Assembly (NCBI RefSeq): GCF_009650215.1
Contig: NZ_CP045851.1
Span: 2,631,001 to 2,695,000 of the forward strand
DNA: 64,000 nucleotides
Source: Actinomarinicola tropica
GTDB lineage: Bacteria; Actinomycetota; Acidimicrobiia; Acidimicrobiales; SKKL01
Direction of reading: 5' to 3'
Part shown: in pieces, positions 38,442 through 58,138 of the stretch
Layout: each line of letters begins with the position of its first letter
Numbering within the stretch: position 1 is the stretch's first letter
The notes under the pieces: generated by a model
The model's database searches: none
Told to the model about the DNA's origin: nothing
The model's input: the letters and a program-made list of their open reading frames with translations, nothing else
Translations under genes and position numbers: made by a program

Positions 38442-39347
38442 TCAGCGGAGGGAGGCGGCGAGGCCGTCGAGGAGGTCGCGCTCGGAGACGAGGAGCGGGT
38501 CGACGTGCAGCGAGCGCATGATGGCGACGAGGATCGCCGAGCCGCCGACGATCACCTCGGCCCGGTCGGGGTGCAGGCCGGGGTTGAAGCGGCGGTCCTC
38601 GAGCGGCTCGGTCACGAGCGTGCGGAACACGTCCTCGGCCGCGTCGTGGGTGAGCTCGAAGTGGTGGGTCGCACCGGGCTCGTCGACGCCGCACCCCAGC
38701 TCGACGGCGGCGACGGTCGTGACCGTGCCGGCGACGCCGATCCACGTGCGGACGTCGGCCAGCTCGGGGAGCTCCCTCTGCACGTCGGCCAGGTGCGCCT
38801 CGGCCACCGAGAGGCAGGCGACCAGCTCCTCGGGCTCGGGCGGGTCGGACTCGACGAAGCGCTCGGTGAAGCGCACCGAGCCCATCTCGACCGAGAGCAC
38901 CCGCTCCAGCTCCGTGGTCCCGTACGCGAACTCGGTCGAGCCGCCGCCGATGTCGACGACGCAGAACGGCCCACGTGAGGGGTCGAGCCCGGCGGTGGCC
39001 CCGGCGAACGACAGCCGCCCCTCCTCGTCACCCGGCAGGATCTCGGGCCGCACGCCGAGCGTGGCCTCGGCCCGGTCGAGCAGCTCGTCCCGGTTCGTGG
39101 CGCTCCGGGCGGCGGAGGTGGCGGCGACCCGGACGGCCTCGACGCCGTGCTCGTCGAGGAGGCGGCGGTGCTCGGCCAGCTCGGCGATCGTGCGGTCGAG
39201 GGCGGCCGGGTCGAGCCGCCCCGTGCGGTCGACGCCGGCGCCGAGCCGGGTGATCGTCTGGCGGCGGACGACGTCGCCGTCGGGCCCGCTGATGAGCAGC
39301 CGGATCGTGTTGGTGCCGCAGTCGACGGCCGCGACGAGGTCAGCCAC
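38442..39347 (-). CDS. ppx: Exopolyphosphatase/guanosine pentaphosphatase (Ppx/GppA family)
   Basis: Hydrolyses polyphosphate or pppGpp. The ASKHA-fold phosphate loops are visible: AAVDCGTNTIRLLI near the N-terminus and FCVVDIGGGSTEFAYG in the middle, plus the GVAGTVTTVAAVELG and ERVGGSAIL-like RAEVIVGGSAILVAIM segments. At 301 aa it is the short actinobacterial Ppx type. The GTG start at 39347 overlaps the DUF501 stop by 8 bp. Order DUF501-ppx is the standard actinobacterial one (Rv1025-Rv1026), but here the usual upstream genes ftsB and eno lie 6 kb away beyond the cox-type operon. Confidence 0.93.
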   Translation of the reverse strand: MADLVAAVDCGTNTIRLLISGPDGDVVRRQTITRLGAGVDRTGRLDPAALDRTIAELAEHRRLLDEHGVEAVRVAATSAARSATNRDELLDRAEATLGVRPEILPGDEEGRLSFAGATAGLDPSRGPFCVVDIGGGSTEFAYGTTELERVLSVEMGSVRFTERFVESDPPEPEELVACLSVAEAHLADVQRELPELADVRTWIGVAGTVTTVAAVELGCGVDEPGATHHFELTHDAAEDVFRTLVTEPLEDRRFNPGLHPDRAEVIVGGSAILVAIMRSLHVDPLLVSERDLLDGLAASLR

Positions 39348-39825
39348 CGGCGGGTACCCCCTCGTCCGGAACGCCGGGCTCGTCGGGCTCATCGAGGTGG
39401 TCGGCGACCCATCGGCCGACGGGGTCGTCGCCACCGGCCAGGTACCAGGCGTAGTGGGCGTGCAGGCACTTGACGCCGCGCCGGGTGCCGCCGACGCCGC
39501 CGTACGGGCGGGGGCCAGCGTGGTCCGCCGGCACCTCGGCGTCGCGCTCAGCGGCGTACGCGGCGTGGGCGGCGGCGAGGGCGCCAGGATCGACGGCCTC
39601 CTCGGCCCGCTTCACGCCGCCGCGCGACTCCAACCGGCCGACGGCGACGCGCTCGGCCGCGCCGACCAGCCAGTAGCGGGTCGGCATGGGCGTGCCGTCG
39701 TCGAGCAGCGGGGCGTTGCGGATCACGACGGGCACGCCGGCATCGTCACGGACGACGACCTCGAACTCCCCGAGGGGCGCCCGGCCGAGCAGCTCGGTGA
39801 CCGCTCCGCGGTCCGCGTCGTGCAC
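39340..39825 (-). CDS. DUF501 family protein, 161 aa
   Basis: A small protein conserved next to ftsB and ppx in actinobacteria; its function is not known. The sequence has the family core: VTELLGRAPLGEFEVVVRDDAGVPVVIRNAPLLDDGTPMPTRYWLVG, then ESRGGVKRAEEAVDPGALAAAHAAYAAERD, and the conserved GGVGGTRRGVKCLHAHYAWYLAGGDDPVGRWV. The Cys-Leu-His-Ala-His motif near residue 118 hints at metal binding. Start ATG 39825. It overlaps ppx by 8 bp and starts 11 bp downstream of the coxG stop, so it may now be read from the cox promoter. Confidence 0.92.
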   Translation of the reverse strand: MHDADRGAVTELLGRAPLGEFEVVVRDDAGVPVVIRNAPLLDDGTPMPTRYWLVGAAERVAVGRLESRGGVKRAEEAVDPGALAAAHAAYAAERDAEVPADHAGPRPYGGVGGTRRGVKCLHAHYAWYLAGGDDPVGRWVADHLDEPDEPGVPDEGVPAGG

Positions 39826-39836
39826 GCCGGGAGCGG

Positions 39837-40589
39837 TCAGCTGCCCCGCCCGCGGAGCCAGCGCAGGATGAGCAGCACGATGACGATCACACCGATGGTC
39901 GGTGCCAGGCGCTTGGCGACCGGGACGCCGGCGGCGTCGAACAGGTCGACCGGCTTGGCCTCGGGCTGGTCGATGCGCCGGACGTTCGACGGCGTGGTGT
40001 CGACCGCCGGGCCGGCGTTGCTCGCGGGCGCCTCGCCGGTGGCGGTCGCCGCAGCGGCCTCGGTGGTGCCGGCGTTGCTCGCCGCAGGCTCGGCCGACGT
40101 GGACCCGGCGGCGGTTGCGGGCGGGGCCTCCTCGGCCCCCTCCTCGCCGGCGAGCACCGTGGTGTGCAGGTTCTCGACGAACTGGTCGAGCAGCTTGGCG
40201 CTCACGTCGGCCATGACGCCCCGTCCGAACTGGGCCACCTTGCCGGTGACCTGGAGGTCGGTGTGGACGCTCACCTTTGTGCCTTCGCCTGCGGCCTCGA
40301 GCCGCGCGGTGATGCGGGCGTTGGCGTTGCCCTGGCCGCGGGTGTCACGGCCGTCGGCCTTCAGCACCGCGACGTGGTTCTCGTCGTCCTTCTCCTCGAA
40401 GGTGGCCTTGCCCTTGTACTGGGCGGTGATCGGGCCGACCTTCACCTTGACGACGCCGCGGTACTCGTCGCCCTCGACCTCCTGCAGCTGGGCGCCGGGC
40501 AGGCACGGGGCGATGCGCTCGACGTCGGTGAGCACGGCCCAGGCCCGCTCGACCGGCACGGCGACCTCGAAGTCGTTCGTCAGCTCCAT
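39837..40589 (-). CDS. coxG: CoxG-like SRPBCC protein with C-terminal membrane anchor, 250 aa
   Basis: CoxG recruits CO dehydrogenase to the cytoplasmic membrane. The SRPBCC domain covers about residues 1-150: MELTNDFEVAVPVERAWAVLTDVERIAPCLPGAQL, KVKVGPITAQYKGKATFEE, GQGNANARITARL, LQVTGKVAQFGRGVMADVSAKLLDQFVENL. An Ala/Pro/Thr-rich linker follows (150-225), then a single tail helix, LAPTIGVIVIVLLILRWLRGRGS. This layout equals that of CoxG. Start ATG 40589 overlaps the mocA stop by 10 bp. It is the last gene of the cox-type operon, although no CoxL is encoded here for it to bind. Confidence 0.92.
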   Translation of the reverse strand: MELTNDFEVAVPVERAWAVLTDVERIAPCLPGAQLQEVEGDEYRGVVKVKVGPITAQYKGKATFEEKDDENHVAVLKADGRDTRGQGNANARITARLEAAGEGTKVSVHTDLQVTGKVAQFGRGVMADVSAKLLDQFVENLHTTVLAGEEGAEEAPPATAAGSTSAEPAASNAGTTEAAAATATGEAPASNAGPAVDTTPSNVRRIDQPEAKPVDLFDAAGVPVAKRLAPTIGVIVIVLLILRWLRGRGS

Positions 40590-41140
40590 CGTCGGAGATC
40601 CTCCTGCGTGTCGATGTCCACGGGCGTGCCTGGGCACGGTACCGCCTCGACGAGGTCGCTCCGTCCCCGGATGAGCGACCGGGCGCCCTCGTCGCCCTCG
40701 CTCGGGAGCAGAGGCCAGACCTCCTCGGCCAGGCGGACGGGGTTGCGCCGCTGCCCGTCGTAGGTGGCGACGGCGATGGGCGACGTGCTCGCGGCGACGG
40801 CCGCCCACGCCGCCGGCTCGATCAGGGGCTGGTCGCCGAGGCCGACGACCATCGCGTCGTGGCCCGCGGCGGCGACGGCCTGCCGGGCGACCTGGAGGGA
40901 CGTGGCCTGGCCCTCGGCCCAGCGCGGGTTGTCGACCACCGTCACCCCGGCGGGGAGCACGGCGCGCACGTCGATCGCACCCACGACGACCACGACCTCG
41001 TCGAGCCCGGCGTCCACTGCGGCCTGCACGGCCTGGGTGACGACGGTGGAGCCACGGAAGGGCGCGAGGAGCTTGTGCCCCTCCCCCTCGAACCGTCGCC
41101 CACCGCCGGCGGCGAGGACGACCGCGGCCGTCGTGCCCAT
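40580..41140 (-). CDS. mocA: Molybdenum-cofactor cytidylyltransferase-like nucleotidyltransferase, 186 aa
   Basis: Adds CMP to molybdopterin for xanthine-oxidase-family enzymes. The nucleotide-binding signature is VVLAAGGGRRFEGEGHKLLAPFRGSTVVTQAVQAA. VVVVVGAIDVRAVLPAGVTVVDNPRWAEGQATSLQVA and MVVGLGDQPLIEPAAW (the conserved GDQP) follow, and RRNPVRLAEEVW and VDIDTQEDLRRW end the protein. It is typical of MocA/CoxI-linked transferases. Start ATG 41140. It lies 4 bp downstream of the XdhC gene, supporting a cofactor-maturation role for this operon. Confidence 0.93.
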   Translation of the reverse strand: MGTTAAVVLAAGGGRRFEGEGHKLLAPFRGSTVVTQAVQAAVDAGLDEVVVVVGAIDVRAVLPAGVTVVDNPRWAEGQATSLQVARQAVAAAGHDAMVVGLGDQPLIEPAAWAAVAASTSPIAVATYDGQRRNPVRLAEEVWPLLPSEGDEGARSLIRGRSDLVEAVPCPGTPVDIDTQEDLRRWS

Positions 41141-41144
41141 CGGC

Positions 41145-41939
41145 CTAGCGGTGGATGCTGCCGGCGGTGTCGCGCAGCGACGGCGCAGGTCGGCCGGTGC
41201 GCAGGGCGATGACCTCGGCGAGGATCGAGATCGCCGTCTCCTCCGGGGTGCGGGCGCCGATGTCGAGGCCGATCGGCCCCATGATCCGGGCGAGCTGCTC
41301 CTCGGTGACGCCCTCGGCCCGCAGGCGCTCTCGGCGGTCCTCGTCGGTGCGGCGCGAGCCCATCGCCCCGAGGTAGCCGACGTCGGTGGCGAGCGCGGCG
41401 ACGATGGCCGGCACGTCGAACTTCGGGTCGTGGGTGAGCACGCACACAGCGTCGCTCGGACCGAGCTCGGCGCCCCGGGCCTCCACGAGGCGGTGGGGCC
41501 AGTCGACGACCACCTCGTCGGCCATCGGGAAGCGGCGCTCGGTGGCGAACACCGGTCGGGCGTCGCACACCGTGACCCTGTACCCCAGCACCTTGGCGAC
41601 CCGTGCCAGCGCCGCGGTGAAGTCGACGGCACCGAAGATCCACATCTGCGGCGGCGGCGCGAAGGACTCGATGAACACCGACACCGTGGTCTCGCCCGCC
41701 TGGCCGCGGGGGCCGTAGTGGCGCATCCCGGACCGACCTGCGTCGAGCTCGCCCCGCACGTCGCGACCGACGACGCGGTCGAGGTCCTCGTTGCCGAGCG
41801 AGCCGACCGGGTCCTGGCCCGGCACGACGAGCAGCTTGCTCCCGGCACCCGGCCCCTCGACGACCGTCGCCAGGGCGACGGGCTCCTCGGCGCGCAGCCG
41901 CTCGCGCAGGATCTCGTAGATCGGGGCGGGATCGGCCAC
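41145..41939 (-). CDS. coxF: XdhC/CoxF-type molybdenum-cofactor insertion protein, 264 aa
   Basis: XdhC-family chaperones bind molybdenum cofactor, promote its sulfuration and load it into the large subunit of xanthine- or CO-dehydrogenases. Here the C-terminal Rossmann half is complete: MWIFGAVDFTAALARVAKVLGYRVTVCDARPVFATERRFPMADEVVV, VCVLTHDPKFDVPAIVAALATDVGYLGAMGSRRTDEDRRERL and IGLDIGARTPEETAISILAEVIA. The N-terminal part is also present but lacks the usual CGG motif, which the separate small gene 41942-42256 carries. Start GTG 41939. The gene begins 3 bp after that partner gene ends. Confidence 0.92.
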   Translation of the reverse strand: MADPAPIYEILRERLRAEEPVALATVVEGPGAGSKLLVVPGQDPVGSLGNEDLDRVVGRDVRGELDAGRSGMRHYGPRGQAGETTVSVFIESFAPPPQMWIFGAVDFTAALARVAKVLGYRVTVCDARPVFATERRFPMADEVVVDWPHRLVEARGAELGPSDAVCVLTHDPKFDVPAIVAALATDVGYLGAMGSRRTDEDRRERLRAEGVTEEQLARIMGPIGLDIGARTPEETAISILAEVIALRTGRPAPSLRDTAGSIHR

Positions 41940-41941
41940 CG

Positions 41942-42256
41942 CTACCAGTCCAGCGGCTCGATGAAGAGGTGGACGGTGCCGCCGCAGGTGAGGCCGACGG
42001 CGAACGCCTCGTCGTCGCTGTACCCGAACGTCACGATCCGCCGCTCGGCGCCCTGGAGGATCTGGAGGGCCTCGGTGACGACGGCCCCCTCGACGCAGCC
42101 GCCCGACACCGAGCCGGCGACCTCGCCGTCCTCGTTGACGGCCATGGCCGCCCCCGGTTCTCGCGGCCCGGACCCGTCGATGTCGACGACGCGTGCCACC
42201 GCGACGCGCTTGCCGGCCGCACGCCAGCGTTCGATGTCGTCGAGGATCTCCCTCAT
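41942..42256 (-). CDS. coxI: XdhC/CoxI N-terminal domain protein, 104 aa
   Basis: A stand-alone XdhC_CoxI domain: MREILDDIERWRAAGKRVAVARVVDIDGSGPREPGAAMAV, GEVAGSVSGGCVEGAVVTEALQIL and the C-terminal FAVGLTCGGTVHLFIEPLDW. The two cysteine motifs (GGCVEG and LTCGG) are the conserved ones of the family and probably bind the molybdenum cofactor. Usually this domain is fused to the Rossmann half, so here the function is split over two genes. Start ATG 42256 overlaps the VWA gene's stop as ATGA. Confidence 0.93.
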   Translation of the reverse strand: MREILDDIERWRAAGKRVAVARVVDIDGSGPREPGAAMAVNEDGEVAGSVSGGCVEGAVVTEALQILQGAERRIVTFGYSDDEAFAVGLTCGGTVHLFIEPLDW

Positions 42257-43389
42257 GCTGCGATCTCCTCCGCGAGGTGCTCCAGCGCGGCCAGCGAGTG
42301 GCCTGCGATGAACGTATCCACGAACGGCAGCGCCGCGGCCATCCCGCGCGCCAACGGCTCGTAGCCGGGCGTGGCCTTCAGGGGGTTGACCCACACGACG
42401 CGGTGGGCCACCCGGTGCAACCGACCCATCTGCTCGGCGAGCAGGTCCGGGTCGCCCCGGTCCCAGCCGTCGGAGAGGATCACGACCACGGCGCCGCGAG
42501 CCATGCCGCGGACCCCCCACTGGTCGTTGAACGTCCGCAGCATCTCGCCGAGGCGGGTGCCGCCCGACCAGTCCTCGACGGCGTCGGCCGCCCGAGCGAC
42601 GGCGGCGTCGGGGTCCCGCGAGGCGAGCTCGCGCGTGATCCGGGTGAGCTGGGTGCCGAGCGTGAACGCCTCGACGCGGGCCCGACCGACGACGGCGGCG
42701 TGGACGAAGCGGACGAGCGAGCGGGCGTAGGGCTCCATCGAGCCGCTGATGTCGACGAGCAGGACGAGGCGCCGGGGCCGCTCCCCCGGTGCCGTCGTCG
42801 AGAGCCGGGTGGTCTCGCCGCCCCGGCGCAGGGCGTCGCGCAGGGTGCGTCCGAGGTCGATGCGGGCGCCGGCCTCGCCGACGTGGCGACGCCGACGGGA
42901 CGGGCGGCGGGCCGACACGACGCGCATGCGGTCCATCAGCCGGTGGGCCTCGGCCAGCTCCTCGTCGGTGCAGCTGGCGAAGTCGCGCTCGCGCAGCACC
43001 TCCTGGGCGCTGTAGCGCACCGACAGGACCGGCCCCTCCTCGTCGCCCGACTCGTCGGGCGCCTCGGACGGGTCGTCCTCGCCGTCGTCCAGTGCGACGG
43101 TGATGCGCTCCGGTGCCGATGCGCCGCGCAGGACCGCCGCCGCGCCGTGGTCCCAGTAGGCGCGGAACACCTCGTCGTAGACGGGGACGTCCTCGGGCCG
43201 GGTGACGAGCGTGGCCCGGCCCGCCCAGTACGCCCCGGCCCGGTCGTCGAGCCCGACCTCGCCGAGGGCCTGGACGAACAGCACGGTGCTGCCCACCGGC
43301 ACGACGAGTCCGGCACGCCGCAGCGCGGCGACGAAGCCGACCACCGCCCGGTCGACGCCGGTGGTCACCTCGACCCCGTCAGGTGGCAC
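42253..43389 (-). CDS. coxE: CoxE-like VWA-domain protein, 378 aa
   Basis: Works with the CoxD AAA+ ATPase in maturing the CO-dehydrogenase active site. The C-terminal von Willebrand A domain has the MIDAS motif LVDISGSMEPYARSLVRFVH and continues with VEAFTLGTQLTRITREL, WSGGTRLGEMLRTFN and VVVILSDGWDRGDPDLLAEQM. The N-terminal helical domain (about residues 10-170) contains an acidic stretch and YSAQEVLRERDFASCTDEELAEA. Start GTG 43389, overlapping the coxD stop by 11 bp; a GTG slightly downstream would also work. Confidence 0.92.
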   Translation of the reverse strand: MPPDGVEVTTGVDRAVVGFVAALRRAGLVVPVGSTVLFVQALGEVGLDDRAGAYWAGRATLVTRPEDVPVYDEVFRAYWDHGAAAVLRGASAPERITVALDDGEDDPSEAPDESGDEEGPVLSVRYSAQEVLRERDFASCTDEELAEAHRLMDRMRVVSARRPSRRRRHVGEAGARIDLGRTLRDALRRGGETTRLSTTAPGERPRRLVLLVDISGSMEPYARSLVRFVHAAVVGRARVEAFTLGTQLTRITRELASRDPDAAVARAADAVEDWSGGTRLGEMLRTFNDQWGVRGMARGAVVVILSDGWDRGDPDLLAEQMGRLHRVAHRVVWVNPLKATPGYEPLARGMAAALPFVDTFIAGHSLAALEHLAEEIAA

Positions 43390-44287
43390 GGCGCGCCGCG
43401 TCCTCGACGAGCGCCTGCAACCCGCGGCCGCGGACGCGCTCCTGGTCCTCCCGGTACTTGAGGACGGTGCCGAGCGTGGCGTCGATCGTGTCGACGGTGA
43501 GGTCGCGCTGGCCGAGCAGGTGGACGGCGGTGGCCCAGTCGATCGTCTCGGCCACCCCCGGCGGCTTGTAGAGGCCGAGGTCCCGGAGACCCGCGGTGGC
43601 CGCCGCGACCTGGCGGGCGAGGGACTCGGCGACGTCGGGGGCCCGCATCCGCACCACGGCGACCTCCCGCTCGAAGTCCGGGTGCTCGACCCAGTGGTAG
43701 AGGCACCGGCGCTTCAGCGCGTCGTGCAGGTCGCGGGTGCGGTTGGAGGTGACGACGACGAGCGGTGGGGTGGGCGCCCGGAAGGTGCCCAGCTCGGGGA
43801 CCGTGATCGTGAAGTCGGAGAGGATCTCGAGGAGGAAGGCCTCGAACTCGTCGTCGGCCCGGTCGAGCTCGTCGATGAGCAGCACCGGCGGGACGCCCTC
43901 GCCGTGGTCGAGCGCCCGCAGCAGCGGGCGGCGGACGAGGAACCGCTCGCTGTACAGCTCGTCCTCGAGTCGATCGGTCTCGTCCCGCGTGGCCGCCCCG
44001 GTGGCCTCCGCCGTGCGCAGGTGCAGCAGCTGGCGGGCGTGGTCCCACTCGTACGCCGCCTGGCCGAGGTCGATGCCCTCGTAGCACTGGAGCCGGATGA
44101 GCTCGCCGCCGGTCCAGCGGGCGAGCGTCTTGGCCACCTCGGTCTTGCCGACACCGGCCTCGCCCTCGAGCAGCAACGGCCGGTGCAGCCGCATCGCGAG
44201 GAAGATCGCCGTGGCGAGACCCTCGTCGGCGAGGTACTCGTGCGCGGCCAGCGCGTCACGGACGTCGTCGACCGACCCGGGCGTCAC
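43379..44287 (-). CDS. coxD: MoxR-family AAA+ ATPase, CoxD-like, 302 aa
   Basis: An AAA+ chaperone that, with CoxE, matures molybdo-hydroxylases (CoxD is needed for the sulfurated Mo-Cu site). Walker A is [16 protein letters not shown], Walker [26 protein letters not shown], sensor 1 [31 protein letters not shown]. The N-terminus [29 protein letters not shown] matches the CoxD branch. Start GTG 44287, overlapping the coxM stop by 4 bp (GTGA). In standard operons coxL would lie just upstream of coxD; here coxM does. Confidence 0.93.
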
Positions 44288-45117
44288 GTCCGTGCGCCCG
44301 CCTCCTCGAGCGCCCGCCGCACGAGCACCCGCGCCAGGTGCCGCCGGTACTCCTCCGACGCGTTGAGGTCGGCCGTGGGCTCGGTGCCCTCGTCGGCGAC
44401 CCCCGCGGCGTCGGTGAGCGACGCGCCCTGGGACAGCGCCGACTCGGCGGCCGTCGCCCGCAGCGGCGTGGAGCCCATGTTGACCAGGCCGATGCCGGTG
44501 CGTCCCGCGCCGTGCACGAGGGCCACGCCGACGATGGCCCAGTCCTGCGCCCGCCGGTTGAACTTCTGGAACGACCAGCCGACGCCCGCAGCCTTGGGGA
44601 CGCGCACCTCGGTGAGCATCTCGTCCTCGGCGAGGGCGGACTCGAAGTAGCCGGTGAAGAACTCGCCGATCGGGATCTCGCGGGTGGCGCCGCCGGCGCC
44701 GGTGGCGACCAGGGTGGCGTCGAGCGCGAGGAGCGCCGCGGGCAGATCCGATGCCGGGTCGGAGTGGGCGAGCGTGCCGCCGATGGTGCCGCGGTGGCGG
44801 ACCTGCGGGTCGCCGACGTGGGACGCGGCGTGGGCGAGCAGGGGGACCTCGGCGGCGAGGAGCGGGTCGACCTCGAGGTCGCGGTGGCGGGTGAGCGCAC
44901 CGATCGCGACGTGGTCGCCGGCGTCGCGCACGTAGCGCAGGTCCGACAGGCGTCCCACGTCGACGAGCACGCCGGGGACGGCGAGGCGCAGCTTCATCAT
45001 CGGGAGGAGCGAGTGGCCGCCGGCGAGCAGCTTGGCCTCGTCCCCGTGCCCGCCGAGGAGGGCGATGGCGTGGTCGGCGCTGTCGGCGCGGACGTACTCG
45101 AAGGCGGCGGGGATCAC
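44284..45117 (-). CDS. coxM: FAD-binding medium subunit of a CO/xanthine-dehydrogenase-type enzyme, 277 aa
   Basis: Carries FAD and passes electrons from the iron-sulfur subunit to the acceptor. FAD motifs are [28 protein letters not shown] and [27 protein letters not shown], both well conserved. [24 protein letters not shown] segment and a C-terminal [16 protein letters not shown] helix complete the family pattern. The GTG start at 45117 ([13 protein letters not shown]) overlaps the coxS stop as GTGA. A longer upstream frame runs through coxS and was rejected. Confidence 0.93.
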
Positions 45118-45629
45118 GACCGCCCTCCGGAGGTGACGTCGACCGGGGTCATCGACGGCTCCGACGACGGGTCGCCCGACGCCGCGGCCAGGACCGCCTT
45201 GACGATGTTGTGGTAGCCGGTGCAGCGGCACAGGTTGCCCTCGAGGCCCTCTCGGACCTCGCGCTCGGTCGGGTCCGGGTTCTCCTCGAGCAGCGAGGTG
45301 GCGGCCATGACCATGCCCGGCGTGCAGTAGCCGCACTGGAGGCCGTGGTGCTGGCGGAACGCCTCCTGCATCGGGTGCAGCGTGCCGTCCGCCGCGGCCA
45401 GGCCCTCGATGGTGGTGATCTCGCTGCCGTCGGCCTGCACGGCGAGCACCGTGCACGACTTCACCGATTCGCCGTCGAGGTGGACGGTGCACGCGCCGCA
45501 CGACGACGTGTCGCAGCCGATGTTCGTCCCGGTGAGACCGGCGGTCTCCCGGATGAAGTGCACGAGCAGCGTGCGCGGCTCCACGTCCGCGCGGTGCTCG
45601 GCGCCGTTGATCCTCAGCGTGATCTCCAT
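45114..45629 (-). CDS. coxS: [2Fe-2S] small subunit of a CO/xanthine-dehydrogenase-type enzyme, 171 aa
   Basis: Holds two [2Fe-2S] clusters. The ferredoxin-type cluster is in [25 protein letters not shown], the second in [12 protein letters not shown] and [18 protein letters not shown]. Length and N-terminus ([28 protein letters not shown]) are standard, with a short extra C-terminal tail ([19 protein letters not shown]). Start ATG 45629. It is the first gene of the minus-strand operon coxS-coxM-coxD-coxE-coxI-coxF-mocA-coxG. Only 48 bp separate it from the ftsB stop, so the promoter is inside that gap or further upstream. Confidence 0.95.
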
Positions 45630-45677: not shown

Positions 45678-46022
45678 TCAGGGCGCGTCGGCCGGCGGGG
45701 CAGCCGTGAAGGGCCACCCTGGGGGGATGTCGATCGGTGGCGCAGGCAGCGGGAGCAGGCTGTAGGCCTCCTCTCCCGGGCGGACCATGCCGTACTGCTC
45801 GCGGGCGAGCAGCTCGATCTCCTCCGGCGAGTCGAGCGCCGCCACGCGGGCGTCGAGCTCGGCCAGCTCGGCGTCGAGCTCCTCGAGCTCGGCCGTCGAC
45901 GCCGAGATGGCGTTGCGCTGGTCGAGCCAGGTGCGGGTCGGGAACATCGTGAGGAAGAGCGCGCCGATGACGAGGAGCGCGGCCACGACGGGCCACACGA
46001 GTCGGCGGGCGTTCGCCTCCAC
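45678..46022 (-). CDS. ftsB: FtsB/DivIC-family septum formation initiator, 114 aa
   Basis: A bitopic divisome protein. The N-terminal membrane helix is [22 protein letters not shown] (residues about 7-28), followed by a coiled coil in which [32 protein letters not shown] shows the heptad pattern. The conserved C-terminal [20 protein letters not shown] motif closes the family pattern, and a Pro-rich tail ends the protein. Start GTG 46022, 2 bp after the enolase stop, so the two genes are co-transcribed as in other actinobacteria. DUF501 and ppx, the usual next genes, are displaced. Confidence 0.93.
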
Positions 46023-46024
46023 GG

Positions 46025-47422
<1,398 letters not shown>

Positions 47423-50400
47423 TCAGAGGCCGCGCAGCGCCCGGCGGACCTCGGCGGCGAGCTGGGGGACGCGCCCGGGCGAGAACATCGAGAAGTGGTC
47501 GCCGGGCACCGATACGACGTCCAGGTCGCCGGTGATGTGGCCCGTCCAGTAGTAGTCGTGCGGCTGGATGGGCCACACCTGGTCGGCCTTCAGCAGCGTG
47601 ACGTCCACGGGGTAGCTGCCGAGGCGGTGCTGCTCGGCGACGGCGGAGAAGTGGTCGAAGAGGTTGACGTGGCTGCCGTCGAGGTCGGGATCGAGGACCG
47701 GTGGCATGCGGAAGCCGTGGCGGATGAGGGTGGTCAGATAGGGGGCGACGCCCCGGACGCGGCCCGCGGCGAGGTGCCGCAGCACGTTGCGGACGCGCTC
47801 GCGCCGGCGGGGCGAGGCGCACCCCGGCGGCACGCTGTCGAAGAGCACCACCCTGGGGACCTCGGCACCGAGGTCGCGCAGGCGGTTGGCGACCTCCAGC
47901 GCGACGAGCCCCCCACCGGAGTAGCCGCCGAGCAGGTACGGGCCGGGGAGGGTGGCCTGCAGGGCGGCGGCGTACCGGTCGGCCATGGCGTCGATGCTGG
48001 GATCGGGCTCCTCCTGCCCGTCGACGCCGACGGCCTGGATGCCGAGAACCGGACGCTCGTCGGCGAGCGCCCGTGCGAGCGACCAGAGGAAGACGACGCT
48101 CCCGCCGGCCCCGTGCACGATGACGAGCGGCGTGCCCGCACCGCCCTCGGCGATCGGCACGATCGGGCTGCGTGCCGTCGACGGCACCTTGCTGTGCGCG
48201 TCCACGAAGGCCGCCATCTCGGACAACGTGGGGGCTGCGAGCACGTCGGTGAGCGCCATGTCGACGCCGAAGGCGCGACCGAGCCGGGCCACGAGCCGGA
48301 TGGCGAGGAGCGAGTGCCCGCCGAGGTCGAAGAAGTCGTCGTGGGGGCCGGGCGCCACGCCGAGCAGCTCGGCCCACATCGCCGCCAGCCGCTCGATCGT
48401 GGGACCGCCGTCGGCGCCACCCGCCACGTCGGGGGACACGGCCGTCGCGACCGGGGCGTCCGCGGCGGCCACGAGCGCGGGGAGGTCGACGCTGGACGCG
48501 AGGAGCCGGGGGCGCCCGTCGGCGAGGACGAGCTCGACGAGGCGCACCCCCTCGTCGGGGGTGATCCCCGTCGAGGACGCCAGTCCCGCCAGCGCACCGC
48601 CCCGCGCGTCGACGTCGTCGGGCACGGCGGACGCAGCGAGCGTCCGCTCCCCCTCCAAGCGCCACAGCTCGAGGCCGTGGATGCGGACGAGCGGCTCGCG
48701 GCCGGCACCGAGCACATCGACGTCGCAGGCCGACGGCTCGCCCGCCGTGCGCCGGACCACGACCTCGACCTCGCGCGGCACCGGGCCGCGCCACTCGACC
48801 GAGCGGTAGCCGATGGGCACGAAGAGCGCGTCGTCGCCCGGCTGCCGCACCAGCTGCACGGCGAGCCCCGTGGCCGCGTCGAGCAGCGCGGGGTCGGCGA
48901 CCCAGGGTGAGCGGTCCTCCGAAACGGCGGCGACGACGCGACCGCTGAGGACGTCGGCGCCGCGCGCCACCTCGGTCGGCGGCGACCAGTGAAGCCCCAG
49001 GCCGAGGTGGTCCCGCTGGCCCTCGAGGGGGTCGACGACGCTCCGTGGCACGCCGGCCAGCGGGTCCTCGACGCGTCGCGTGTCGACCTCTGCGCCGTCG
49101 ACCACCAGCTCGGCGGTGCTGTGGAGCCGCCAGCTGGCGCCGTCGGGCGCGCTCTCGAGGCGCACCTCTCGGCGTCCCTCGCCGGGAGCGGCGACGCGCA
49201 CACGCACGATCACCTGGTCCCCGTCGGGGACGGACAGCGGCTCGTGGAGGGCGACCGTCCGGAGCTGGACCGTCGTGCTGGAGGCACCGGAGATCCGGGC
49301 GGCGCCGACCATCAGCTCCAGGTGACCCGTGCCGGGGAGCACTGGATGCCCCTCGACGCGGTGCTCGCCGAGGATCCACTGCGAGGCGGGATCGAGGTGG
49401 CCGACGACGTCGATCGCGCCGTCGCGGCCGGCGACGAGCTCCTCGAACACCGGGTGCTCGACGGGCGAACCGTCCGCGAGGCCGAGCTGCGCACGCCGTG
49501 CGAACTCGTCGGCCATGCCGGTGCCCGCCCACATGCCGGAGGCGAACGTGACCACCGACAGCGGGCCGTGCGTCCCGGCGAGGGCGTCGAGGACGGCGTT
49601 CGCCGCCACGTACGCCGTCTGGCCGGCGGGGGCGAGGACGGTGGACGTCGACGACACGAGCAGCAGGAGGGGGACCTCCCGGCGGCGCAGCTCGTCGACG
49701 AGGTGCACCGCAGCGCCGGCCTTCGGCGCGACGACGGCGGTGGCGTCGTCAGGTGTCGACGTGGCGAGGAGCCGGTCGCGCAGCACGCCCGCGGCGTGCA
49801 CCACGCCGTCGAGCGGACCCACCCGGGCCACGGCGTCGTCGAGGGCCGCCGCCACCTGCGCGGGGTCGGCGAGGTCGGCGTGGACGACCTCGACGCGCGC
49901 GCCCGTCGCCTCGAGGTCGGCGATGCGACGCAGCCGGCGACTCGTCGGTTCGGACGGGCCGTGGGTGCGCAGCCACTCCGCCCGGGCGTCGCCCGCCGGC
50001 AGGGCCCGGCTCGTGGTGAGCACCAGGATGGCGCCGTGGGCGGTGGCCAGGTGCCGGGCGAGGGTGTGGCCGATGCCGCCCAGGCCGCCGGTGACCAGGT
50101 ACGTCCCCCCGTCCCGGAGGCGCCCGTCGACCTGGCCGGTGGCAGTGGTCGAGGCGAGGCGGGGCGTCAGCGGCCGCCCGTCGCGCACTGCGACGACACG
50201 CCGGCCGACGTGGGGGGTCCGGAGCTCGTCGAGGATGGCGCGCACCGCCGCGGAGGGGTCGTCGCCGACGACCACGTCGACCAGCGCCGTGTCGACCTGC
50301 GGGTACTCGCGCGGCGCCACGCGTGCCACGCCGAGCGCCAGCGCGTCCCACGGGGCGGGCGCCGGTCCGTCCACGGCGAGCCCGCCGCGCCCGACCAGGA

Positions 50401-53400
50401 CCAGACGGTGGTCGGACGTGGCGGCGGTGCCGAGGTGGTCGGCGAGGCGCACGGCGGCGTCGAGCCAGAACGGCGCGGCGTCCGCCTCGTCGCGCCGGTC
50501 GGCCCCGACGAGGAGCACCCCGTCACCGTCGGCGAGCGGGGCGCGCAGCAGGTCGTCGACGTCGCGGTGCGTGCGCACCTCGGCGGCGACCGCGTTCAGG
50601 TCCGCGACGAGGAGGTCGGCCAGCTCGTCGGTCGGGGCCAGGACCCGCCACCGCCGTACGACGGCCTCGACCGCGGCCGGATCCGGCTCCCACGCCTCGA
50701 GCCAGAGCATGTCGGTCGGATCCTCGATCCGCGCCGGCCCCTCGGCGACCTCGGGTCCGGCGGCGGTGCGGGCGCCGATCGCGGGCACCAGCGGTGTGGC
50801 CGACGGGTCGGGCGGGTCGATCCAGTGGCGCTGCCGCTGGAACGGGTACGTGGGCAGGACGACGCGGGGCGTCGTGGCGACGAGGGCGTCGAGGTCGACC
50901 GGGAGCCCGAGCGCCCACCGCTGTCCCAGCGCCTCGAGGGCCGCCGCGGTGTCGTCACCGGCCTGACGCGGGTGCCGCATCGACGCCACGGCGAGCACGG
51001 GCGGATGGTCCGCCCGGCGGGCCGTGGCGGAGAGGGTGTGCCCCGGCCCGAGCTCGACCGTCGACGTGGGACCGTCCCCGAGCACCGTGGCCAGGCCGTC
51101 GGCGAAGCGCACGGTGCCGCGCAGGTGACGCACCCAGTGCTCCGGATCGGTGACCTCACCAGGAGCGACCCACGAGCCGGTGAGGTTCGAGACGTAGGGA
51201 CGGGTCGGCTCCGAGAAGGTGACCGTCCGGGCCACCTCTCGGAACTCGTCGAGCACGGGGTCGAGCAGGACGCTGTGCGCGGCCGCGGCGAGGGGGATGC
51301 GCGACGTCTCGACGTCCCTGCCCCGCAGCAGCTCCGCCACCGCGTCGACGGCGTCGCGCTCCCCCGCGAGGACGCACTCGGCCGGACCGTTGACGACCGC
51401 CAGGGAGACCTGCGGCCCGAGGAGGTCGGCGACGTCGTCCTCGCCGAGGGGGACCACCAGCATCGCGGCGCGGTCGCCACCGACCTGCGACATGAGGCGG
51501 GAGCGGGCGACGACCAACCGCACCGCATCGGGGAGGGTGAGCACGCCGGCGAGGTGCGCCGCGACGTACTCCCCGAGGCTGTGGCCGAGCATGGCGTCCG
51601 GCTCGACGCCGAGGTCCATCCACTGCCGAGCCATCGCGAGCGACGTGGCGAACACCAGCGGGAGGGCGACGGCGGGGTCGTCGAGGTGGGCGGGGTCGGC
51701 ATCGGGCGCCAGCCCGGCGCGCACGTCGACGTCGGTGTGGCGCGCGACCTCCGCGAGGACCTCCTCCCGCACCCGGTGGAACGTGGCGAACCGTTCGTCG
51801 AGCCCGGCCCCCATCCCCGGGTGCTGGGAGCCGCCGCCGGGGAACAGGAACACGGTGCGCGGCGGCGAGCCCTCCTGGGCGACGGTCCCCGAGGCGACGC
51901 GCCGGAGCCGGGTGACGGCGTCCGCGGCGTCGGCGACCCCGACGGCCCGCCGCACGGGGAAGGCGCAGCGACCCGCCCGCAGGGTGTGGGCGACCGCGCC
52001 GAGGTCCGCCTCCGGGTGTCCCTCGAGGTGATCGGCGAGCCGGGCGGCCGACGCGGCGAGCGCGGCGTCGTCGCGGGCGGAGAGGAGCAGCACCTCGGGC
52101 CGTGCCCGTCGCGCCGTAGCCCGTCGCTCCGGGGCCTCCTCCACCACGACGTGGGCGTTGGTGCCACCGACGCCGAGCGAGCTGACGCCCGCCCGGCGCA
52201 CGCCGTCGACCTCCCACGGCGAGGCCTCCCCGCTCAACGTGAACGGCGACCCGTCCAGGTCGACGAGCGGGCTGGGCGCCGTGTGATTCGCCATCGGCGG
52301 CAGCGTGCGGTGGCGCAGCGCCTGGACCACCTTGATGAGCGACGCCGCCCCGGCGGCCGTGTCGAGGTGGCCGACGTTGGGCTTGGTCGACGTGAGCCGG
52401 CACCAACCGCGCCGACCCCCGCCGTCGAACGCCGCCGACAGCGCGGCGACCTCGATCGGGTCACCGAGCGCGGTGCCGGTGCCGTGGGCGTCGACGAGCT
52501 GGACGTCGGTGGGCGCCAAGCCGGCGACGGCCAGCGCCTCGGTGACGACGTCGGCGTGGCCGTCGACGCTCGGCGCCAGGTAGGACACCTTCCGCGCGCC
52601 GTCGTTGTTGACCGCCGACCCCTTGATGACGGCGAGGATCGGGTCGCCGTCCTCCCACGCGTCGGTGAGGCGGCGCAGCGCGACGACGGCGGCGCCGCTC
52701 GTGAGCACCGTGCCGTCGGACGCGGCGTCGAAGGCCCGGCACCGACCGGTCGGCGAGAGGATCTCCCCCTCGTGGTAGCGGTAGCCGACGCCGTGGGGCA
52801 CCTCGATCGTGACGCCGCCGGCCAGTGCCAGGTCGCACTCCATCCCGAGCAGGCTCTGCACCGCGAGGTGCACCGCCACGAGCGACGTGGAGCACGCCGT
52901 CTGCACGTTGATCGACGGACCCCGCAGGTCGAGCTTGTAGGAGACGAGGGTCGACAGGAAGTCCTTGTCGTTGCCGGTGTGGCGCAGGAGGAACCAGCCC
53001 AGCTCGTCCACCAGCTGGGGGTTCGCGAGCAGGCAGTGCACCAGGTAGGTGTTCATGCCCGACCCGGCGAACACGCCGATCGCCCCGTCGAACCGGGACG
53101 GGTCGACCGCTGCGGACTCGAGCGCCTCCCACGCGCACTCGAGGAAGTGCCGGTGCTGGGGATCCATCACGGCGGCGTCGCGCGGCCCGATCCCGAAGAA
53201 CCCGGCGTCGAACAGGTCGACGCCGTCGAGGGCGCCGGTGCGACGCACGTAGCTCGGGTCGTCGACCGTGGCGCGCGGGATGCCGGCGGCGAGGAGCTCC
53301 TCCCTGCTGAGGTCCCGGAGGCAGTCCTCGCCTCGTCGCACCCGCTCCCAGAGGACGTCGACGTCGGGAGCACCGGGGAAGCGACCGGAGATGCCGACGA

Positions 53401-53461
53401 CGGCGACGTCGTTCTCGGAGATCTCGCGGGGCTCGACGCCGGACGGATCGGTCGTGCTCAT
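47423..53461 (-). CDS. Type I polyketide synthase, KS-AT-KR-DH-ACP-TE, 2012 aa
   Basis: A single chain-extension module with release domain. KS: residues about 18-441, Cys190 in QTACSTSL, His326 in DAHGTGT, His365 in NVGHLD. AT: about 537-830, Ser628 in GHSLGEY, C-terminal AAAHS in place of HAFH/YASH, so extender choice is uncertain. KR: about 1117-1310, TGGLGGIG, Ser1271 and Tyr1284, with an LRD motif of B type. DH: about 1366-1600, GEHRVEGHPVLPG with His1367, and Asp at the DPALLD segment. ACP: about 1690-1755, Ser1717 in GGHSLL. TE: about 1775-2005, Ser1848 in GGYSGGG, His1989. No ER or MT. The N-terminal ISENDVAVVGISGRF lacks a clear docking domain. Start ATG 53461 overlaps the NRPS stop (ATGA), so the two act as one assembly line. 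Confidence 0.93.
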   Translation of the reverse strand: MSTTDPSGVEPREISENDVAVVGISGRFPGAPDVDVLWERVRRGEDCLRDLSREELLAAGIPRATVDDPSYVRRTGALDGVDLFDAGFFGIGPRDAAVMDPQHRHFLECAWEALESAAVDPSRFDGAIGVFAGSGMNTYLVHCLLANPQLVDELGWFLLRHTGNDKDFLSTLVSYKLDLRGPSINVQTACSTSLVAVHLAVQSLLGMECDLALAGGVTIEVPHGVGYRYHEGEILSPTGRCRAFDAASDGTVLTSGAAVVALRRLTDAWEDGDPILAVIKGSAVNNDGARKVSYLAPSVDGHADVVTEALAVAGLAPTDVQLVDAHGTGTALGDPIEVAALSAAFDGGGRRGWCRLTSTKPNVGHLDTAAGAASLIKVVQALRHRTLPPMANHTAPSPLVDLDGSPFTLSGEASPWEVDGVRRAGVSSLGVGGTNAHVVVEEAPERRATARRARPEVLLLSARDDAALAASAARLADHLEGHPEADLGAVAHTLRAGRCAFPVRRAVGVADAADAVTRLRRVASGTVAQEGSPPRTVFLFPGGGSQHPGMGAGLDERFATFHRVREEVLAEVARHTDVDVRAGLAPDADPAHLDDPAVALPLVFATSLAMARQWMDLGVEPDAMLGHSLGEYVAAHLAGVLTLPDAVRLVVARSRLMSQVGGDRAAMLVVPLGEDDVADLLGPQVSLAVVNGPAECVLAGERDAVDAVAELLRGRDVETSRIPLAAAAHSVLLDPVLDEFREVARTVTFSEPTRPYVSNLTGSWVAPGEVTDPEHWVRHLRGTVRFADGLATVLGDGPTSTVELGPGHTLSATARRADHPPVLAVASMRHPRQAGDDTAAALEALGQRWALGLPVDLDALVATTPRVVLPTYPFQRQRHWIDPPDPSATPLVPAIGARTAAGPEVAEGPARIEDPTDMLWLEAWEPDPAAVEAVVRRWRVLAPTDELADLLVADLNAVAAEVRTHRDVDDLLRAPLADGDGVLLVGADRRDEADAAPFWLDAAVRLADHLGTAATSDHRLVLVGRGGLAVDGPAPAPWDALALGVARVAPREYPQVDTALVDVVVGDDPSAAVRAILDELRTPHVGRRVVAVRDGRPLTPRLASTTATGQVDGRLRDGGTYLVTGGLGGIGHTLARHLATAHGAILVLTTSRALPAGDARAEWLRTHGPSEPTSRRLRRIADLEATGARVEVVHADLADPAQVAAALDDAVARVGPLDGVVHAAGVLRDRLLATSTPDDATAVVAPKAGAAVHLVDELRRREVPLLLLVSSTSTVLAPAGQTAYVAANAVLDALAGTHGPLSVVTFASGMWAGTGMADEFARRAQLGLADGSPVEHPVFEELVAGRDGAIDVVGHLDPASQWILGEHRVEGHPVLPGTGHLELMVGAARISGASSTTVQLRTVALHEPLSVPDGDQVIVRVRVAAPGEGRREVRLESAPDGASWRLHSTAELVVDGAEVDTRRVEDPLAGVPRSVVDPLEGQRDHLGLGLHWSPPTEVARGADVLSGRVVAAVSEDRSPWVADPALLDAATGLAVQLVRQPGDDALFVPIGYRSVEWRGPVPREVEVVVRRTAGEPSACDVDVLGAGREPLVRIHGLELWRLEGERTLAASAVPDDVDARGGALAGLASSTGITPDEGVRLVELVLADGRPRLLASSVDLPALVAAADAPVATAVSPDVAGGADGGPTIERLAAMWAELLGVAPGPHDDFFDLGGHSLLAIRLVARLGRAFGVDMALTDVLAAPTLSEMAAFVDAHSKVPSTARSPIVPIAEGGAGTPLVIVHGAGGSVVFLWSLARALADERPVLGIQAVGVDGQEEPDPSIDAMADRYAAALQATLPGPYLLGGYSGGGLVALEVANRLRDLGAEVPRVVLFDSVPPGCASPRRRERVRNVLRHLAAGRVRGVAPYLTTLIRHGFRMPPVLDPDLDGSHVNLFDHFSAVAEQHRLGSYPVDVTLLKADQVWPIQPHDYYWTGHITGDLDVVSVPGDHFSMFSPGRVPQLAAEVRRALRGL

Positions 53462-56400
53462 CCGCCGCCTCGTCGACCGGCTCGCGCCTGGCGACGCCGC
53501 GCCCCGCGATCGGCTCCCGTCGGCGTCGCAGGTGCGGCGTCGTCGACGGCCGCCCCGCCCGACGCCAGGCCGTGGAGGTGCGCGCCCAGCGCGGCCACCG
53601 TGGGGTGACGGAACAGGTCGGTGAGCACGAGCGGCAGCCGCGTCGCCTCCTGCAGGTGGCGGAACACGGCGACGGCGAGCAGGGAGTTGCCACCGAGGTC
53701 GAACACGTTGACCGACCGCCCGACCGGACGGTGCAGCCGCGACGACCACGCCTCGGCGACCAGCGCCTCCATGTCGTCGACCGGCACGTCCTCCGGGGCG
53801 AGCGGCGCATCCAGATCGGCTGGCGCGTCGGGCAGCGCCGCCCGGTCGATCTTGCCGTTCGGCGTCAGCGGCATGTCGTCGACCACGCCGACGGCGTCGG
53901 GGACCATGATGGCGGGCAGCGACCGACGGGCCTCGGCGAGCAGCGCCGGGACGTCGGCCTCCTGCCCGGCCGCCGGCTTCACGAAGGCGACGAGCCGAGC
54001 GTCTGCACCCTCCCCTCGGATGACGACGATCGCCCGGTCGACCGCCGGGTGCGCGTCGAGGACCGCCTCGATCTCGCCGAGCTCGATGCGGTGACCGCGG
54101 ATCTTCACCTGGAAGTCGGCCCGACCGGCGAACCGCACGACGCCGTCGCCGTCGATGCTCGCCAGGTCCCCGGTGGCGTAGGTCCGCCCGAGGCCGCCGC
54201 GGTCGACGAACCGCTCGGCGGTCAGCTCCGGGCGTCCCAGGTAGCCGCGGGCGACGCCCTCGCCACCGATGTGCAGCTCGCCGAGCGCGCCGAGGGGCAG
54301 CGGGGTCCCGTCGGGGTCGAGGACGTGCACCGTGGTGTTGGCGATCGGGCGCCCGATGGGCACGGCGCCGTCCGACGGGCCCTCGACCTCGTGCACCAGG
54401 GACCAGATCGTGGTCTCGGTCGGTCCGTACATGTTCGTGAGGCGACCGGGCACGGTGCGACGGAGCTCGTCCGCCACCTTCTCGCTCAACGCCTCGCCGC
54501 CCACCATCAGGTGCCGGACGCGGCCCAGCGCCGCCCGGTCGTCGGGGTCGGCGAGGAGGATCTCGGCCAGCGAGGGCGTGCACTGCAGGTGGGTGACGTC
54601 GTGGCGAGCGACGAGCGCGGCGACCGACTCGTCGTCGTCGGCCTCCGCGGGGCCGACGGCACCGGCGAGCACCAGGCGTCGGGCGGCGTCGATGTGGGCC
54701 AGCGATCCGAGGACGTCGTCGGTGGCGACGCCGAAGTCGATCAGGCACGCGACCTCGTCGGCACCGGCCTCCGCGACGGCGACGGCGAGCGCTGCGGCAT
54801 CCTCGGGCGTGCCGAACATCCCGCTCGTCTCCATGTAGCGCTCGGTGGCCATCGTGAGGAGCTGGTCCATCTCCTCGGGCGAGAGCGATCGGAAGGCCTC
54901 GTCGGCGTCGGCGCCGGCGTTGGCGAAGGTGGGGAAGGCCGATGCCATGTTCTTGATGAGCCCGGTGGCGCTCGACAGGTACGCGCGCATCGGCCCCTCG
55001 GCCCGGGCGCGGGCGGCCGCCCCGTCGGGGTCGAGGTGGGTGTGCAGCATCAGGGTGACGTGGCCGTCGCCCGGGTGCCCGGCCTCGCGCCAGGCCCGCC
55101 GGTAGACGTCGACGTTGGTCGCGAGCTGCTCGATCGACTGGCCGAGCAGGTGGGTGAGCAGGTTGTGACCGGCGCGACCGGCCTGCTCGAACGTGGCCGT
55201 CGTACCGGCCGACGTCAGCCAGGTCGGAAGCTCCGACTGCACGGGCCGCGGCAGCGTGGAAACGGCGATCGGCTCCCCGTCGGGGCCGGGCAGCTCCAGG
55301 GCGTCGCCCCGCCACAGGGCCCGGACCTCGTCGATGCGGCGCGGCAGGTCGGCGCGGGCCGTGCCGTGGGACGCGGGGTTGAGGACGAAGTCGCGCGGCT
55401 GCCAGCCGGGGGCGAACGAGATGCCCACCCGCCCGTGGGACAGGTTGTCGACGAACGCCCACTCCTCGGCCACGCGGGCGCTGGCGTGGAGCGGGAGCAC
55501 CACGCTGCCGGCCCGGATGTGGACCCGCTCGGTGACGGCCGCGACGGCGGCTGCGGCAACGCTCGGGTTGGGGTACGCCCCGCCGAAGTCGTGGAAGTGC
55601 CGCTCGGGGAGCCAGACGGCCTCGAACCCGTGTGCGTCGGCGAATCGGGCGCTCTCGAGCAGCAGCCGGTAGCCCTCGGCCGCCTGCTCGTGGCCGGCGG
55701 CGAAGTAGAAGAGGCTCCAGGTGGGGACGCGCCGCGCCGTCGCCCGTCGCGCCGCACCGGCCGCTGCGGCGATCCCTTGCCGCTGGACGACGACGTGGAA
55801 CCCGCGGGTCAGCGTCCACAGCAGCTCGAGGACCGAGATGTCGAACGACAGGCTGGTGACCGCGAGCCACGTGCCCGGCGGGTCGTGGTCGATCACGTCG
55901 TCCATGCCGGCGAAGAAGTTCGTGACGTTGCGGTGCTCGAGGACGACGCCCTTCGGCCGGCCGGTGGACCCCGACGTGTAGATGACGTAGGCGACGTCGT
56001 CCGCGGTGTGGGGCGACGTCGGCGCGGGCCCGCGCGGGACGCCGCCGTCCGTGGGGTCGACGACGGGCCGGCCCTCGACGCCCAGCCGGTCGGCGGTGGT
56101 GCGTTCGGCGACGACGACGGCGAGGTCGGCGTCCTCGACCATGAAGCGCAGCCGCTCCTCCGGGTAGTCCGGGTCGAGGGGGACGTAGGCGGCCCCGGTG
56201 GCCATCGCGGCCAGCACGGCGGTGACGAGGTCGATCCCGCGCGGCACCGCGATGCCCACGAGCGACCCGGTGGACGCGCCGGCCTCGGCCAGGCGCGCCG
56301 CCAGGTGGTCGACGCGCGCCGCCAGCGCGGCGTAGGTGAGCGTCTGGTCCCCGCAGGTCACCGCCGGGGCGTCAGGGGTGGCCGCGACTCGAGCGCGGAA

Positions 56401-58038: not shown

Positions 58039-58044
58039 GCTGTC

Positions 58045-58050
58045 TCCTCC
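58045..58050 (-). promoter_or_regulatory. Ribosome binding site that fixes the NRPS start
   Basis: GGAGGA on the minus strand, 6 bp before GTG 58038. It excludes the longer upstream frame, which would run antisense through the glycosyltransferase gene. Confidence 0.8.
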
Positions 58051-58138
58051 TCGTCCTCGCGCTGGTGGCGGGAGCGGGACAGGCTCCCACGATCCGTCCG
58101 GCGCTGTCACCCTCCCGTCGGTCGCTAACGTGCCCGCC

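Follow-up and report, generated by a model that had tools for sequence, protein, structure and literature searches.

An eight-gene CO dehydrogenase-type operon without coxL in Actinomarinicola tropica, a candidate shared chassis for solitary form II catalytic subunits

The operon and the catalytic subunits of its genome

We analyzed a 64-kb window of the Actinomarinicola tropica genome (NZ_CP045851.1; genome G000, one contig of 3,715,454 bases), which carries an eight-gene operon of the carbon monoxide (CO) dehydrogenase type on its reverse strand (39837-45629). The genes run in the order coxS, coxM, coxD, coxE, a short XdhC N-domain gene, an XdhC-type chaperone gene, a mocA-like gene, and coxG (Table 1). 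All are intact, neighboring genes overlap or have a few bases between them, and Pfam domains confirm each one, so the first-pass annotation was right about the gene content and its tight packing. It was also right that the catalytic subunit CoxL is missing: a genome-wide profile search with PF02738 (CoxL) gave no match inside the window. It placed the normal site of coxL between coxM and coxD, but the usual place is inside an M-S-L or S-L-M trio (PMC13203968; statements attributed to papers by PMC number refer to the portions of those papers accessible to us). Below, G and L with three digits denote genomes and fetched loci, and L1, L2, and L3 are the three strong CoxL genes of G000. Only L105 and L114 showed an L gene, in both cases L2, between M and D.

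Because the genome is a single contig, its whole inventory of S, M, and L genes can be read. PF02738 gave three matches over the cut-off (1359391, 3257478, and 3552171) and one below it (3330920), in a fused protein. CoxL is therefore encoded elsewhere, one of three options that the first-pass annotation had offered. L1 sits between its own small and medium subunit genes (S2-L1-M2), while L2 and L3 are solitary, neither having an S or M gene within the 20 kb of surrounding sequence fetched. Two S genes and two M genes exceed the cut-off; in addition, there is an S-type fused protein, and one M match falls below the cut-off. Thus, only the window S and M or those of the L1 set can serve L2 and L3. 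All parts of a xanthine-oxidase-family heterotrimer are encoded in the genome: iron-sulfur (Fe-S), flavin adenine dinucleotide (FAD), and molybdenum (Mo) subunits.

L1, L2, and L3 all have the a/b hammerhead, MoCoBD_1, and MoCoBD_2 domains. L2 and L3 are 60% identical, and L1 shares 44% identity with L2 and 41% with L3; S and S2 are 79% identical, and M and M2 71%. L2 aligns with CoxL 8uem_A over residues 6-750 (1.3e-141) and retains KGIGES, which fits the KGxxE motif of the catalytic Glu near the L C terminus. All three proteins carry the form II loop AYRGAGR. It replaces the form I loop AYXCSFR, which is missing from L1-L3, so there is no Cys at that place, and the L2 alignments with 8uem and 1ffu lack it. 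In form I, the loop Cys has a role with copper.

The XdhC_CoxI domain has two matches in the whole genome, both within the window operon. This suggests that L1, despite its own S2 and M2, probably relies on the window maturation genes as well.

The fused protein (L014:5354-6952, reverse strand, approximately 3.33 Mb) has 532 amino acids (aa) and combines Fer2 and Fer2_2 with a small part of MoCoBD_1. G003, G005, G009, G015, and G043 likewise have weak PF02738 matches, in frames 526-604 aa long. Divergent from solitary L2 lies a gene for a multicopper oxidase with a SoxE/cupredoxin part (L012:6738-8168, reverse strand), also found beside L2 in G001, G002, and G003. We dropped prediction of substrates from gene neighbors, as this oxidase is on the other strand with no clear link, and the L3 neighbors matched in G001 only.

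Table 1. Genes of the operon, its borders, and the CoxL genes of the genome. Positions are those of the window unless a fetched locus is named; start Met codons of the short XdhC, MocA-like, and coxG genes were picked by us.
Feature	Position	Strand	Evidence or remark
coxS, [2Fe-2S] small subunit, 171 aa	45114..45629	-	Fer2_2 1.5e-35, Fer2; closest solved chains include CO dehydrogenase small subunits
coxM, FAD medium subunit, 277 aa	44284..45117	-	FAD_binding_5 1.2e-50, CO_deh_flav_C; CutM of CO dehydrogenase 1.8e-66; overlaps coxS
coxD, AAA ATPase of maturation	43379..44287	-	AAA_5; orthologues in relatives' operon
coxE, VWA protein	42253..43389	-	VWA_CoxE 5.7e-59
Short XdhC/CoxI N-domain protein	41942..42256	-	XdhC_CoxI 8.1e-25 (scanned as 41942-42277)
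XdhC-type chaperone (CoxI + Rossmann)	41145..41939	-	XdhC_C 9.9e-45, XdhC_CoxI
MocA-like cytidylyltransferase	40583..41140	-	NTP_transf_3 9.4e-28 (scanned as 40583-41152)
coxG	39837..40589	-	COXG 6.4e-25 (scanned as 39837-40616); hydrophobic C-terminal tail read from sequence
eno (enolase), upstream border	46025..47311	-	Enolase_C 3e-129, Enolase_N; upstream of the chassis in relatives
ftsB/DivIC, upstream border	45678..46013	-	DivIC 9e-13; 48 bp before coxS
DUF501, downstream border	39340..39825	-	DUF501 5.4e-23; 11 bp after coxG
ppx/gppA, downstream border	38442..39434	-	Ppx-GppA 7.8e-55
L1	~1.36 Mb; L011:8216-10633		own S and M (S2-L1-M2 set)
L2, 754 aa	~3.26 Mb; L012:9029-11293		solitary
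L3, 759 aa	~3.55 Mb; L013:8053-10332		solitary

Chromosomal address and linkage in relatives

The electron-transfer and maturation genes, which we call the chassis, have the same address, eno-ftsB-[cox]-DUF501-ppx, in the window and in many relatives. The relatives' loci are the best 80 of 591 and hence no random sample; by named taxon they comprise 45 of Acidimicrobiia type, 4 Pseudonocardiaceae, 1 Rubrobacteraceae, and 1 Thermoanaerobacterales, with 29 assigned to nothing finer than Actinomycetota, Actinomycetes, or bacterium. One record named as Acidimicrobiales (L116) has DNA identical to that of G056, a genome from the order to which the window belongs. Both borders are visible at 24 of 102 distinct loci with a chassis-type M (one or both are lacking at the other 78), and these hold no L at 10, L2 at 12, L1 at 1, and both at 1. 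In this count, two duplicates were dropped by a 150-base test, near relatives were kept, and L030 was reassigned by hand from no L to L2, its S and M being inverted. The order L2-S-L1-M around one S and one M occurs at 13 of the 102 loci, some with gaps of several kilobases before S. Since relatives hold L1, L2, or both at this address, a deletion, the annotation's third option, is likely for the locus; for the genome it does not hold, as L genes are present. The position in a run of housekeeping genes and the short gaps to both borders (Table 1) suggest that chassis expression would be steady.

Upstream of eno, the window also encodes a polyketide synthase module (KS, AT, KR, DH, PP-binding, and thioesterase domains) and a protein resembling nonribosomal peptide synthetases (47423-58800, reverse strand). 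The latter combines a formyl transferase, an AMP-binding domain enclosing a luciferase-like monooxygenase, and a PP-binding domain.

The same CoxL-less operon, which the annotation had thought worth seeking in relatives, is found in G002, G003, G009, and G175, among others. G001, a draft genome of the same genus, has solitary L2 and L3 (L036 and L037), and its chassis S and M lie at two contig ends (L015 and L016); a further L gene (L038) comes with an S and an M of its own that are less similar. Its L1 has no S or M at a locus (L035) syntenic with L011. We set this solitary L1 aside as clean evidence because the gene (L035:3496-5894) has an apparent frameshift near codon 49, a draft error or decay. 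In G002, L2 and L3 are solitary, the CoxL-less operon is in L017, and other L genes lie beside less similar S and M (M 39-43%). In the draft G003, three L2-type genes are solitary, one of them truncated at a contig end; there is also a weak hit to a fused protein, and the single M is that of the CoxL-less operon. Three further relatives are single contigs: G175 carries the CoxL-less operon before DUF501-ppx, with L1 and one L2 both solitary within the DNA fetched around them; G009 has the CoxL-less operon and three solitary L2-type genes; and in G035 a single M accompanies two strong L genes.

Other arrangements occur in the same genomes. CoxL of form I type (AYRCSFR) with adjoining S and M is encoded at L040:3563-5863 (G002) and L062:2876-5179 (G058). 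In G002, the stretch L043:2867-11842 has a single M and a single S of another subfamily, and around them three L-type genes that are broken up by frame; this may be another instance of multiple L genes per S and M.

For counts across the order, L1-type and L2-type genes were separated by identity limits of our own. Candidates were listed with E cut-offs, and one listing scored up to five candidates per genome and left further matches unlisted. PF02738 matches outnumber PF00941 matches in 39 of the 40 genomes that have PF00941 (239 versus 123, with sub-cut-off matches counted, including weak hits to a fused protein). Across 198 genomes, a chassis-type M lies within 1.2 kb for 15 of the 150 listed L2-type genes, at 1.2-10 kb for 25, and farther off for 7; for the other 103, the contig carries none. 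The 57 listed L1-type genes divide into 44 with such an M within 1.2 kb, 1 with it more than 10 kb away, and 12 without one on the contig. All 15 close L2 genes among those listed share the strand of M, and for 13 the distance to it is 476-581 bases, roughly the length of coxS; in L033 and L024, L2 directly precedes S-M-D-E (15 and 89 bp). At least two listed L1- or L2-type genes accompany a single chassis-type M in 54 of the 123 genomes that have such an M.

Within the fetched loci, no S or M lies within 1.2 kb of 32 of 35 scored L2-type genes, compared with 4 of 32 unrelated L genes and 2 of 10 L1-type genes (six edge cases were left out). Twenty-five of the 35 have no S or M anywhere in the locus, while 7 of the 32 are actually 2.6-8.3 kb from a chassis S or M, and some of these seven were labeled linked in the state analysis described below. 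L2-type and CoxD-type genes co-occur: of the 198 genomes, 107 have both, 15 L2 only, 7 CoxD only, and 69 neither (Fisher 6e-30, kinship ignored). The thresholds were our own, and three other threshold pairs gave similar results. The GAGR loop pattern is present in 17 of 17 L1-type and 46 of 55 L2-type rows, and KGxxE in 17 of 17 and 52 of 55, the misses being L044 and L083, both cut at contig ends, and L081, which is not cut.

Phylogeny and selection

We built a quick L tree of 88 proteins (of 131 rows, 30 from named loci were not selected and 13 unlike L1-L3 were dropped; proteins below 600 aa were excluded). L1-type (17 rows) and L2-type (57 rows) proteins separate, with Shimodaira-Hasegawa-like approximate likelihood ratio test (SH-aLRT) values of 100 and 99. 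L2 and L3 of G000 each cluster with their family orthologues (SH-aLRT 100 each) inside a mostly solitary sub-clade, which also holds one gene from inside the chassis cluster of G016. Linked and solitary L2 states require 4 changes over 51 rows (22 linked and 29 solitary, assigned manually, with four intermediate rows given no label), with linked genes in several sub-clades.

In the M tree, from which rows below 50% identity or short were left out, M2 groups with M proteins of other genomes' S-L1-M sets in a clade of 8 rows (SH-aLRT 97), and the window M is nearest to M of G002 and G003. The idea that S2-L1-M2 was copied recently from the window S and M is thus unsupported, the M2 clade being apart from the window M.

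Nonsynonymous (dN) and synonymous (dS) divergence is 0.085 and 0.433 for S (G000-G001), 0.128 and 0.465 for M (G000-G002), and 0.121 and 0.460 for L2 (G000-G001). The dN/dS ratio for these genes is 0.15-0.33 over all within-family pairs. S, M, and L2 are under purifying selection, and none looks like a decaying gene.

Probable service of one chassis to several catalytic subunits

The remaining option of the first-pass annotation, that S and M serve several unlinked L subunits, is the best supported of its three. From position and copy number we infer that several form II catalytic subunits (AYRGAGR) draw on one common chassis for electron transfer and maturation, and put the probability at roughly 75%. 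CoxS and CoxM would form the electron-transfer part, with two [2Fe-2S] clusters and FAD, and CoxG would hand the electrons to membrane quinone. CoxD, CoxE, the XdhC proteins, and MocA would complete the molybdenum cofactor and insert it; these helper functions are presumably the same as in known cox systems. L subunits from solitary genes (L2 and L3) would dock on the same S and M, so that several enzymes with differing substrates could arise from one chassis.

Several observations weigh against this interpretation. In G000 itself, L2 and L3 could use S2 and M2, given their similarity to S and M. Most relatives are drafts (completeness 91% for G003 and 94% for G001), so the lack of an M on the contig for 103 of 150 listed L2-type genes is partly fragmentation. 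With 44 of 57 beside a chassis-type M, L1 mostly keeps dedicated neighbors, and since 22 of 123 genomes have two chassis-type M genes, a single S and M is not universal. The co-occurrence test ignored kinship, and a CoxD-type match is missing in 15 of 122 L2-type genomes, as is an L2-type match in 7 of 114 CoxD genomes. Nine of 55 L2-type rows lack the GAGR pattern and three, two of them cut at contig ends, lack KGxxE. Finally, L2 and L3 of G000 fall outside the sub-clade richest in operon-linked genes.

The chassis might instead belong to one main solitary L, such as L2, with the others using S2 and M2 or idle, which would be relocation rather than sharing. The linked L2 genes of relatives, the closeness of S2 and M2 to S and M, and the apparent frameshift in one solitary L1 (that of G001) would fit such a split enzyme. 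We nonetheless consider it unlikely, given the three solitary L2-type genes against one M in G003, the two L per S and M in L2-S-L1-M runs, and the 54 genomes in which one chassis-type M accompanies at least two listed L genes. The first-pass annotation had further held that a coxL gene with its own complete coxS/coxM set would make the operon a relic. One of the three L genes, L1 at 1.36 Mb, has such a set, and the confinement of XdhC_CoxI-domain genes to the window operon could mean that S and M persist merely beside useful maturation genes after the operonic L was lost and S2-L1-M2 took over. The relic conclusion does not follow, because purifying selection acts on S and M, G001 keeps the operon while showing neither S2 nor M2 at its syntenic L1 locus, and both XdhC_CoxI genes are here. 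G002 and G003, neither of them with an L1 match at E<=1e-220, also retain S and M, and solitary L2 and L3 would be left without a close partner in G001-G003, so we regard this course of events as quite improbable.

The solitary L2-type proteins could also act without CoxS and CoxM, using another electron acceptor, as the 32 of 35 scored genes with no S or M within 1.2 kb would allow. This seems very improbable: 15 of the 150 listed L2-type genes lie directly before the chassis on the same strand, L2-type genes co-occur with CoxD, and solved relatives of L2 are parts of multisubunit enzymes, whose partners we take to carry Fe-S and mostly flavin. Among the closest known systems, form II CO dehydrogenase, described with a coxS-L-M order and an AYRGAGR loop (PMC13203968), has an unclear role (PMC13203968, PMC13240472, PMC11771112). 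L1-L3 share its loop, and the genome has the same subunit families and helper genes, with S-L-M order at the L1 locus; this order was found only there, whereas S and M of the window are adjacent without L, and L2 and L3 are solitary. The form I Mo-Cu CO dehydrogenase (coxMSL) is similar in the alignment of its CoxL with L2 and in its CoxD, CoxE, CoxG, and XdhC-type helpers, CoxG being cited as a quinone-binding membrane protein (PMC13240472). It differs in loop (AYXCSFR rather than AYRGAGR), in gene order (coxM-S-L rather than S-M without L in the window and S-L-M in the L1 set), and in linkage.

Shared electron-transfer subunits are already in print for the steroid C25 dehydrogenases of Sterolibacterium, which have more alpha than beta and gamma genes; the authors inferred shared beta-gamma subunits, and alpha1, alpha2, and alpha3 were each produced with beta3-gamma3 (PMC6016249, as far as accessible). 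There, as here, catalytic genes outnumber electron-transfer subunit genes, a likeness that our counts tested and bore out. Those enzymes belong to the dimethyl sulfoxide (DMSO) reductase family, with other subunits, and come from one organism, unlike the order-wide conserved address described here. For CoxL-type enzymes, we found no report of CoxS and CoxM shared by several CoxL in the open-license literature searched by title and abstract start. Poribacteria express coxM and coxS without a CO-oxidizing L (PMC8941161), and photic-zone SAR202 have coxS and coxM and lack coxL (PMC11245477), similar to the window operon. For these lineages, the accessible portions of the two papers propose another enzyme or lost CO oxidation and do not raise sharing among L subunits.

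Extended across the order, our interpretation would have one S/M/CoxG and maturation chassis within eno-ftsB-DUF501-ppx, perhaps always expressed, serving an open-ended library of solitary form II L subunits with different substrates, so that a new oxidation would take the gain of one L gene. We regard this extension as evenly balanced between holding and failing. If true order-wide, it would help explain many coxL genes, such as the mean of 12 coxL-family genes per genome in actinobacterial sponge symbionts (PMC8941161), and coxS and coxM without coxL in other lineages. Genome surveys count coxL or demand complete operons, and a form I survey attributes partial operons to incomplete genomes (PMC13240472); if sharing is real, such rules miss real form II enzymes. 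It would also name the S, M, and helper genes to coexpress for obtaining active form II enzymes and finding their substrates.

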